Source of the DNA: Pontibacter coccineus
GTDB taxonomy: Bacteria > Bacteroidota > Bacteroidia > Cytophagales > Hymenobacteraceae
Assembly (NCBI RefSeq): GCF_030546575.1
Contig: NZ_JAUOTN010000004.1
Span: forward strand, 558,001-622,000
Direction: 5' to 3'
DNA: 64,000 bases
Below the pieces are notes generated by a model. That model was not told the origin of the DNA. It worked only from the letters and a program-made list of their open reading frames with translations, and ran no database searches. Below, one piece after another: positions 25,230 to 27,801 of the stretch (the stretch's first letter is position 1; every line of letters begins with the position of its first letter). A program made the position numbers and the translations under genes.

Positions 25230-26642
25230 ATGCTCACCGGACGCGTTAATGCACCAGAGATCAATACCCCGCACGGCTGGCTCAACACCGACCGGCGCTG
25301 GTCTATCAAAGACTTCAGAGGCAAGATCGTACTGCTGGATTTCTGGACATTTGGCTGCATCAACTGTCAGCACATCGTGCCGGACCTGAACCGACTGGAA
25401 GAGGAATTTGCCGACATTCTGGTAGTGATCGGTGTACACTCCGCCAAGTTCGATGCCGAGAAGCAGAGCGAAACCATCCGGCAGGCCATTCAGAAATTTG
25501 GGGTGGAGCACCCGGTGGTGAACGATGCCGACTTTGCCATCTGGAACCTGTATGGCATAAAAGCCTGGCCAACGACCGTGCTCATCGACCCGAACGGAAA
25601 AGTGGTGGGGCAGCATGCCGGAGAGAACGTGTACGACACCGTGCGGCCCTACATCCAGCGCATGAAAGAGGAGTTCCTAGACGAACTCAACCAGACACCT
25701 ATACCTGTGCAGCCTGAGAAGCAAGATGAAAGTGCTCTGTCATTCCCCTCCAAGCTGATCAACGACTCCGAAGGCAACCTATACCTGTCCGACAGCGGGC
25801 ACAACCGCATCCTGAAACTGAACCAGCAGGGACAGGTGCTGGAGGTGATCGGCAGTGGCGAAAGGGGCTTCAACAATGGCGGCTATGCCGATACTACTTT
25901 TAACGAACCACACGGGCTGGCCCTGCATGACGATGTGCTGTATGTGGCCGATGCCAAGAACAACGCCATTCGCAAAATAGACCTGCGGCACCGGATGGTG
26001 AGCACCGCCGCCGGAACCGGCGAACTGGAATACTACTTCCACGACGACAAGCGCAGCGAACCCGTGAACCCCAACAGTCCCTGGGATTTGCTCATACATG
26101 GCAAAAGCATGTTTATCGCCAACGCCGGTAACCATCAGATCCTGCGCATGGATTTGGAAACCGAGCAGGTATACCGATTTGCGGGCAGCGGTCGCGAAGC
26201 CCTCACCGACGGATTGCTGGACGAAGCCGCCTTCAACCAGCCCAGCGGACTATCCATCCGGGGCGAAGTGCTTTATGTGGCCGATGCCGAGGCCAGTGCC
26301 ATCCGTACCGTCAACCTCAAAACAGGTATGGTGCTTACTCCACTTGGGCGTGGCCTCTTCGACTTTGGCGATGTGGACGGCCACGTGGACGATGCCCTGC
26401 TGCAGCACTGCGTCGGACTGCAGGTAATCGACAGCGACGTGTACATTGCCGACACCTACAACGGCAAGATCAAGGTGCTCGACATGGAGCATCACCGCGT
26501 GCGCACCCTTACCGCCGGTCTGCGCGAACCCAACGATGTGCTATACCTGAACGGCCGCCTGTGGGTCACCAGCACCAACAGCCACCAACTCTTCCTGGTC
26601 GATCTGCACACAGGCGCGAAAGAAGAAGTGAAAGTGGTTTAA
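25230..26642 (+). CDS. Thioredoxin-like/NHL-repeat protein (NHLRC2-like)
   Basis: A 470-residue two-domain protein. Residues about 10-155 are a thioredoxin/TlpA-like fold with the redox motif FGCINCQH near residue 48 (CxxC) and the cis-proline region AWPTTVLIDPNG. Residues about 170-460 form an NHL beta-propeller with repeated units such as LYLSDSGHNRILKLN, LYVADAKNNAIRKID and VYIADTYNGKIKVLD. This order is that of animal NHLRC2 and bacterial relatives, whose exact role is unknown. No signal peptide is seen, so the protein is probably cytoplasmic. Confidence 0.85.
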   Translation: MLTGRVNAPEINTPHGWLNTDRRWSIKDFRGKIVLLDFWTFGCINCQHIVPDLNRLEEEFADILVVIGVHSAKFDAEKQSETIRQAIQKFGVEHPVVNDADFAIWNLYGIKAWPTTVLIDPNGKVVGQHAGENVYDTVRPYIQRMKEEFLDELNQTPIPVQPEKQDESALSFPSKLINDSEGNLYLSDSGHNRILKLNQQGQVLEVIGSGERGFNNGGYADTTFNEPHGLALHDDVLYVADAKNNAIRKIDLRHRMVSTAAGTGELEYYFHDDKRSEPVNPNSPWDLLIHGKSMFIANAGNHQILRMDLETEQVYRFAGSGREALTDGLLDEAAFNQPSGLSIRGEVLYVADAEASAIRTVNLKTGMVLTPLGRGLFDFGDVDGHVDDALLQHCVGLQVIDSDVYIADTYNGKIKVLDMEHHRVRTLTAGLREPNDVLYLNGRLWVTSTNSHQLFLVDLHTGAKEEVKVV

Positions 26643-26761
26643 GTTAGAAAGTCTGGAAGTTAGAAAGTTAGAAAAGGTGTGTTTGTAGCGACGTTATACT
26701 GTAATGTTGTGGTGGGATAGCGAACGGCTTGAGATAGGTATAGATAAAGAACTTTTTGTAG

Positions 26762-27148
26762 GGACAGGTCAAAGCTGTCTGAACCGCTCCACCTTCTCCC
26801 TCGCTCGCGTCCCGCGAGTGTGAGCTATCTGGCGGACTCTGGCCGCTTTCCCAGATACTCTTTTCAGATGTCGAGATGCACTCGAATGCACCCAAATGCT
26901 CTTTCGGACATCCATGTCCGGAAGCCATCTGTTGGGGATGTCTACATCCCCGTGCTCATGTTCACAGGTATACAGGGACACGGATGTCCCCGGCAGGAAT
27001 ACTTTCGGACACGGATGTCCGAAAGAGCGCTATAACTGACACACGGGGATTAGGAAATCCCCGACCGTTTGCTTCGGGATTGATAAATCCCGAAGAGCCT
27101 TTGAGAGCCTTACAGAAATATTCGTTTGCAGAGGCAGGTCGCGACCTG
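26762..27148. repeat. Array of seven or more short perfect hairpins
   Basis: The 526-base gap between genes holds a run of inverted repeats with 2-4 base loops. CGGACAT/ATGTCCG is at 26905-26920. GGGGATGT/ACATCCCC is at 26934-26951. GGGACA/TGTCCC is at 26975-26990. CTTTCGGACA/TGTCCGAAAG is at 27002-27025. CGGGGATT/AATCCCCG is at 27044-27063. CTTCGGGATT/AATCCCGAAG is at 27072-27095. The palindrome CAGGTCGCGACCTG is at 27135-27148. CTCGCG/CGCGAG (26804-26818) and GACAG/CTGTC (26763-26779) lie upstream. The first and last members share the frame CAGGTC...CTGTC(T/A)GAA, so related modules bracket the array. No coding sequence explains it. Confidence 0.85.
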
Positions 27149-27168
27149 TCAGAATCGTGGATGAACAG

Positions 27169-27801
27169 CTATACCTTAACCGTCACTTTCGCCTCGATCA
27201 GGTTATTGCGCATCCGCTGGAAGAAGCGGAGCGTGACCTGGAAGATCGGGCTCATGATGAAGGTATAGAAGAAAGTGGCGATGAAGATCGGGCCGCCCAG
27301 CAGATAGCCTATACCCAGAATCGCGCACTCCACCACCATGCGGGTACGGCTCACAGACGTGTTCAGTCGCTCCGACAAAGCCAGCATGAACCCGTCGCGC
27401 GGACCGGCACCCACACCGCCTGCGACATACAGACCACCGGCTATACCTCCTATAATAACAGAAGCAGCCAGGTTCAGATAATCTAGCGACGTGTTGGTAG
27501 CCGATGGCAGGAAGTCGAGCCAAAGGAACATGTCCATGAAGGGGCCGATGAGGAGCGCATTAAGGAAGGTGCCCACGTTGATGTACTTCCGGTTAACGAA
27601 CCACGAAATGATGACGAAGAGCAAGCCCACCAGCACGCTCCAGGTACCGATCGTGAAGCCCATGTGTTGAAACAGCGCCACGTTCAGCACCTCCCAGGGG
27701 TGCAGGCCCAGGTACTTCACCTTCACGGCAATGGCGTTGGCAAAGCCGAACAGAAGCAATCCAAGGAAAAAAAAACTATAACTAACTACTTTTTCGCGCA
27801 T
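27169..27801 (-). CDS. YczE/YyaS/YitT-family membrane protein
   Basis: A 210-residue integral membrane protein with about five helices. The glycine-rich motif GGIAGGLYVAGGVGAGPRDG (about 118-137) and the short basic segment SERLNTSVSRTRMVVE are typical of the YczE/YitT-type family. Function is undetermined, though some members relate to antibiotic export or lipopeptide production. It converges on the hairpin array. Confidence 0.82.
   Translation of the reverse strand: MREKVVSYSFFFLGLLLFGFANAIAVKVKYLGLHPWEVLNVALFQHMGFTIGTWSVLVGLLFVIISWFVNRKYINVGTFLNALLIGPFMDMFLWLDFLPSATNTSLDYLNLAASVIIGGIAGGLYVAGGVGAGPRDGFMLALSERLNTSVSRTRMVVECAILGIGYLLGGPIFIATFFYTFIMSPIFQVTLRFFQRMRNNLIEAKVTVKV

Follow-up and report, generated by a model that had tools for sequence, protein, structure and literature searches.

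A hairpin array between convergent genes of Pontibacter coccineus is very probably a composite of REP elements from different RAYT lineages

The window, that is, the whole 64,000-nt stretch of the P. coccineus contig that was analysed, carries a hairpin-rich array in the gap between a thioredoxin/NHL-repeat gene (25230-26642, + strand) and a YitT/YczE-type membrane gene (27169-27801, − strand; above the Pfam cut-off and below the NCBIfam cut-off), and because these neighbours run on the + and the − strand, the gap lies between convergent 3′ ends. Eight perfect hairpins (stem of at least 6 bp, loop of 2–4) were counted within 390 bases of the array, at 26804-26818, 26905-26920, 26934-26951, 26975-26990, 27002-27025, 27044-27063, 27072-27095 and 27135-27148, whereas 500 simulations of this stretch under a first-order Markov model gave a mean of 0.56 and a maximum of 3. 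The figure of at least seven short perfect inverted repeats given in an earlier note on this DNA is thus borne out. When all 400-base segments of the 64 kb were ranked by hairpins, those over the array came out on top, and the folding of 26762-27153 as single-stranded DNA gave a z value of −7.4, with none of 100 shuffles folding equally well. The array is not a CRISPR, as the same note had held: equal direct repeats with unique spacers are absent from it. At the end of the upstream gene (26641-26676), short direct repeats of the AAGTTAGAAAGT type are found, and similar runs occur in the syntenic gap of several relatives.

The bounds first proposed for the array were slightly short, since the GTAG foot of the first hairpin starts at 26758 and the last unit reaches approximately 27157. 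Within these limits, the order is a GTAG hairpin, an E unit, an H unit, two inverted H units and a degenerate GTAG hairpin. G unit 1 (26758-26782, +; delimited by reading) consists of the GTAG foot and an imperfect GGACAG/CTGTCT hairpin; it aligns with the GTAG hairpin of relatives without the array and is a decayed copy missed by the G profile. The E unit (module E1; 26798-26849, +) is a REP with two hairpins and belongs to the MSEYR-type RAYT lineage. The hairpin pair at 26905-26951 lies in a single unit, H unit 1 (26898-26953, +; 76.4 bits), a two-hairpin REP of the MGLKN-type RAYT lineage, which recurs in inverted orientation as H unit 2 (26972-27028, −; 71.4 bits) and as the likewise two-hairpin H unit 3 (27043-27098, −; 71.1 bits), all scores being those of model R1, which itself contains the three copies. 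H unit 2 is the inverted partner of H unit 1, and the two form a REPIN with 27-nt outer arms that are 93% complementary. G unit 2 (27128-27157, +), with a GCAG foot (a degenerate GTAG) and the hairpin CAGGTCGCGACCTG, is the right end of the composite at this site. The CAGGTC...CTGTC(T/A)GAA frame described as common to the first and last units is real and can be seen directly in the sequence. Outside the array, a decayed GTAG-footed hairpin, GTAGCGACGTTATACTGTAATGTTG, was read at 26685-26709 (+); it probably predates the array, and similar hairpins were read in the syntenic gap of the relatives L251-L255.

An H unit is approximately 56 nt long and consists of GCT, a first hairpin (up to 10 bp), a C(T/G)G-containing linker and a second hairpin (approximately 7 bp). 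Iterated profile searches yielded 105 such units, 74 from own-genome loci and 31 from RAYT loci, weak ones being counted. In an alignment of 49 hand-chosen sequences, in which RAYT-flanking and dispersed copies were mixed, 99.4% of the pair cells in the stems were standard, both sides changed in 10 of 17 pairs, and 134 compensatory cells were observed versus 44.1 in shuffles; as a control, sliding of the stem partner left 21-55% paired. The loop sequences vary among the copies. E units (33, spread over 22 of 37 searched stretches of the own genome) gave a weaker signal than H units, with both-side changes in 3 of 11 pairs; 164 of 500 shuffles reached that number of pairs, and none reached the number of cells. 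Neighbouring units of both families are mostly inverted pairs, i.e., REPINs: at own-genome loci, the H units are oriented +− in 26 of 40 cases (−− in 10, ++ in 4 and −+ in 0), and the E units are oriented +− in all seven. The GT[AG]G foot of canonical REPs is absent from both families, the first stem being preceded by GCT in H and by CCCTCG in E; G units do possess a GTAG foot.

Searching the own genome with positions 26740-27170 of the window gave 88 matches, grouped into approximately 40 places; this genome-wide recurrence agrees with the suggestion that the array is a nest of REP/MITE-like elements and contradicts the opposite possibility, also raised earlier, that the units are unique to the site. 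Identity of the full-length copies to the array of the window is no more than 68-85%, so their spread is old. A match to the array was found in 32 of 59 genomes, namely, the own genome, 30 of 36 from the same genus and one of 22 others, where it was weak. According to model R1, H units are present in 37 of the 41 genomes of the genus, the own one included, and number at least 86 in the own genome (138 of 1746 candidates scored). The sequence CGGACANGGATGTCCG occurs across the genome contigs in at least 118 stretches; full H units (>60 bits) were present at 6 of the 80 listed loci, all from Pontibacter, the other 74 scoring at most 28 bits, and among the matches listed, the named genomes with full H units were those of P. 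mucosus, P. anaerobius and Pontibacter sp. Tf4. Ten copies of CGGACANGGATGTCCG, those shown being approximately 74 nt apart, were also noticed in Pectobacterium polonicum (L104, 2516-3048), where they do not form an H unit. As for the genomic setting, 23 of 29 H clusters in the own genome lie between frames (12 between tandem, 8 between convergent and 3 between divergent genes, by simple frame calling); in the remaining 6, the nearest frame is a short one in overlap with the array and probably no true gene.

The assignment of the units to transposases was provided by the congeneric genomes. PF01797 (Y1_Tnp) matches were obtained in 34 of the 41 genomes of the genus, mostly in proteins of RAYT size, and 60 RAYT loci of up to 4 kb each were examined. 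BLAST matches to the array (E ≤ 1e-4) were present at 14 of the 60, all of them inside the RAYT frame or at most 190 bp from it and none elsewhere in these loci; 12 of the 14 carried MGLKN-type RAYTs with H units and 2 carried MSEYR-type RAYTs with E units. All 12 MGLKN-type RAYTs are flanked by H units (10 of 10 if two loci picked for a nearby repeat are excluded), and they form one clade (95/91; 96% of bootstrap trees; 57-row tree), with a result as low in none of 500 rounds of a label-shuffling control. A wider search revealed the MSEYR-type RAYT in 8 of 50 genomes, and all eight genes stand between an E(+) and an E(−) unit, further E units being present at three. Both families, H and E, are REP elements of RAYTs, and each flanks its own lineage in congeneric genomes; the link to single-strand transposases that had been considered from the hairpins is borne out for two of the three families of units. 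Divergent H-like units (18-31 bits with the covariance model) were located beside the sister-lineage RAYTs L196, L229, L230 and L232, and also beside L245, the N-terminus of which was used to put it in the sister lineage; the pattern suggests joint change of RAYT and REP. An exception is L212, a RAYT of another lineage with an H unit (38.8 bits) approximately 250 bp upstream, and one weak H unit lies near the RAYT of L217; both are taken as background copies.

The three RAYTs tested against NCBIfam NF047646 (REP-associated tyrosine transposase) all scored above the cut-off, and the best solved relative is 4er8 (TnpArep). Among 24 RAYTs compared, 23 are 173-197 aa long and one has 166 aa, the HuH-Y spacing is 80-83 in all 24, NH[LIV]H is found in 19 (SH in 5), WQ in 20 (it is absent in the MSEYR type), the strict YIH[QN]NP in 12 and SS in the tail in 24. 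RAYTs are TnpA-REP proteins, HUH single-strand transposases, and those found here are most likely of subclass 2.6, the motifs of which they fit in part. For the own genome, the conclusion that no RAYT is present, drawn from an empty PF01797 search, proved wrong: a profile built from the 24 congeneric RAYTs found one gene in two pieces in different frames, so absences resting on PF01797 alone are weak. The search for such a gene, recommended in the earlier note, thus ended in a split RAYT of the MGLKN (H) type, with identity of up to 80% in one piece and two H units on each side; the split may be a sequencing error. No RAYT of the MSEYR (E) type was found in the own genome either with this profile or in an MSEYR-type search, and for this reason, the E units give the impression of orphans, a status that the H units may share.

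With up to 3 mismatches allowed, the G family was located at 43 distinct places of the own genome (52 matches, with 9 opposite-strand doubles merged), and no convincing RAYT partner was found for it at the 60 + 8 RAYT loci and L063-L067. G units lie near only 2 of the 60 RAYTs, at L195 (2362-2389, approximately 150 bp away) and L200 (1372-1396, approximately 220 bp away); both RAYTs are of the MSRNYK type, most other members of which have no G unit, and this proximity is either due to chance or hints at a partner for the G family.

The order E+ H+ H− H− G is shared by five clusters of the own genome, i.e., the window, L028, L029, L030 and L031. In L029, L030 and L031, an inverted E unit follows the G unit, so that the H block lies inside an E pair; this E(−) unit is absent from the window copy. 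The stretches between the units are alike among the composite copies, the cargo ends with TGCACA before the E(−) arm in three composites, the spacer ends with GGCACA before the same arm in 4 of 7 simple E REPINs (mirrored in L052), and, by reading, the E arms differ from each other in the same manner in the three composites and in 6 of the 7 simple E REPINs. These similarities of arms, spacer ends and inter-unit stretches point to a single founding composite with subsequent copying; since partial blocks, too, are common at the own loci, joining piece by piece is possible. By analogy with the gene of the E-lineage RAYT, which itself sits between E(+) and E(−), we tentatively consider a compound REPIN, in which H units and a GTAG hairpin entered the spacer of an E REPIN and the resulting block of approximately 560-570 nt was perhaps multiplied via its outer E arms by the E-lineage RAYT. 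Were this so, the REPs of one transposase would travel as the cargo of another. Instead of RAYT activity, gene conversion or recombination could have copied the blocks. Behind the G unit, a decayed run of segments, each approximately 25 nt long and resembling GTATACCTGTCCGAATCGTGCACC, was read in L029 (3330-3530), L031 (3310-3500) and L028 (3353-3640).

The history of the site was followed in 29 loci of relatives, 18 of which have both neighbouring genes (in L259, the genes are 1,280 nt apart), and no E or H unit was present in the orthologous gap of these 18. A hairpin of the GTAGGGACAGGTCGCGACCTGTCC type is found in the gap of L251, L253, L254 and L256, with a variant in L252. Given these gaps with GTAG-type hairpins and no E or H units, the own lineage most likely acquired the array next to a pre-existing GTAG hairpin, repeated loss in the relatives being the less simple explanation; copies share 68-85% identity, which argues against a very recent gain. 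At the L028 site, where gap lengths vary widely, the same gap of the relative G029 was read as holding a composite in decay, which dates some composites to before the species split.

This distribution also bears on the idea that the array is a bidirectional terminator or mRNA-end stabiliser kept by selection. Its position between the convergent ends of the thioredoxin/NHL and YitT/YczE-type genes and its strong fold would suit such a role, but the E- and H-free gaps of 18 relatives do not, nor does the finding that only 8 of 29 own H clusters lie between convergent genes; terminator-like sites number one versus 0.7 expected, and in the scan, neither promoters nor terminators at the array rose above chance. 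Selection for this role is accordingly considered very improbable, and a secondary effect of the array on mRNA ends is possible. Slightly less probable still is the explanation by MITEs of an ordinary DDE insertion sequence, moving in double-stranded form and marked by terminal inverted repeats and target duplications: the 27-nt inverted arms and the presence of composite copies at several loci speak for it, but it does not agree with the linkage of the units to RAYT lineages or the internal hairpins with compensatory changes, and reading of the relatives' array-free gaps revealed no target duplication.

The least probable of the three rivals, and one that was rejected, is a structured regulatory RNA, more specifically a sponge of the CsrB/TwoAYGGAY kind that would bind CsrA by its GGA loops (ACANGGAUGU). 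The hairpin loops of the array resemble CsrA sites, TwoAYGGAY matches were obtained over 26921-27075 (36.9 bits) and in L030 (35.5 bits), and L032 has a weak CsrC-like match. The score of 36.9 is, however, lower than the gathering score of 43, CsrA (PF02599) was found in none of the 41 genomes of the genus versus 3 of 14 control genomes, the loops differ among copies, and copies flank RAYT genes. For the structured RNA proposed in the earlier note, support is likewise lacking: Rfam gave no match at the gathering score anywhere in the window. L032 also contains an ordinary TPP riboswitch (120-217, 68.5 bits).

Taken jointly, the data make it highly probable that the array is a composite of REP elements that spread and decayed by the steps proposed here. 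A RAYT would recognise its own REP when folded as a single strand, e.g., on the lagging-strand template, cut beside it and join it elsewhere, by which REPINs would spread through intergenic gaps. For H and E units, we infer this mechanism by homology, since cutting of single-stranded REPs by TnpA-REP has been shown for groups 2 and 3 (PMC8266576). The array would then have arisen by combination of H units and a GTAG hairpin with an E REPIN, followed by copying of the block to several loci and, in the window copy, by decay with loss of the right E arm. Today, the array is most likely an immobile relic of mobile DNA between convergent genes, provided that no RAYT is still acting on it, and neither a gene nor an RNA switch; for the window itself, the message is thus a modest one.

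BIMEs of E. coli and Pseudomonas are repeat mosaics between genes, and the Pontibacter array is likewise such a mosaic. Unlike canonical REPs and BIMEs, it has a G family without a convincing RAYT partner and mixes REPs of different RAYT lineages. The GTAG at the palindrome foot of the G units resembles that of the canonical GTAG REPs of these organisms (PMC3733652). TwoAYGGAY RNA (RF01731; PMC2864571), reported from the gut, gamma-Proteobacteria and Clostridiales, shares with the array hairpins with AYGGAY loops and owes its match to the loop sequence of some H units; unlike that RNA, the array scores under the gathering threshold. The closest known kind is RAYT subclass 2.6 with its "atypical" REPs, to which the present data add two-hairpin units and nesting. 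According to Quentin et al. (2018; PMC6006769), subclass 2.6 (RAYT group 5) is mostly found in Bacteroidetes and is characterised by approximately 179 aa, NH[LIV]H, WQ, YIH[QN]NP, a median HuH-Y spacing of 82 and SS in the tail, and its flanking structures, found by manual inspection and described as atypical, have no GT[AG]G, a weaker fold and copies elsewhere in the genome. The Pontibacter elements are similar to those described there in their Bacteroidetes host, RAYTs of approximately 180 aa, spacing of 80-83 and GT[AG]G-less flanks recurring in the genome, but differ from that description in that the units consist of two strong hairpins (with the C(T/G)G linker in H) and form inverted pairs, and in the nesting of lineages; the two-hairpin form may already be visible in the supplementary motif table of that paper. 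Among the papers listed in literature searches, none dealt with REPs in Pontibacter, and the one Pontibacter genome paper among them, PMC4511580, has "palindromic" in its reference list only.

The genus offers matched sets of a RAYT lineage and a two-hairpin REP, with divergent sister pairs, and recognition without GTAG therefore becomes testable; the nested copies, in turn, pose the question of whether the reach of a RAYT extends to blocks bigger than a REPIN. RAYTs of other lineages (L240, L242, L210 and L215) appear, by reading, to have their own two-hairpin inverted flanks, so the bipartite form may be general for the group.
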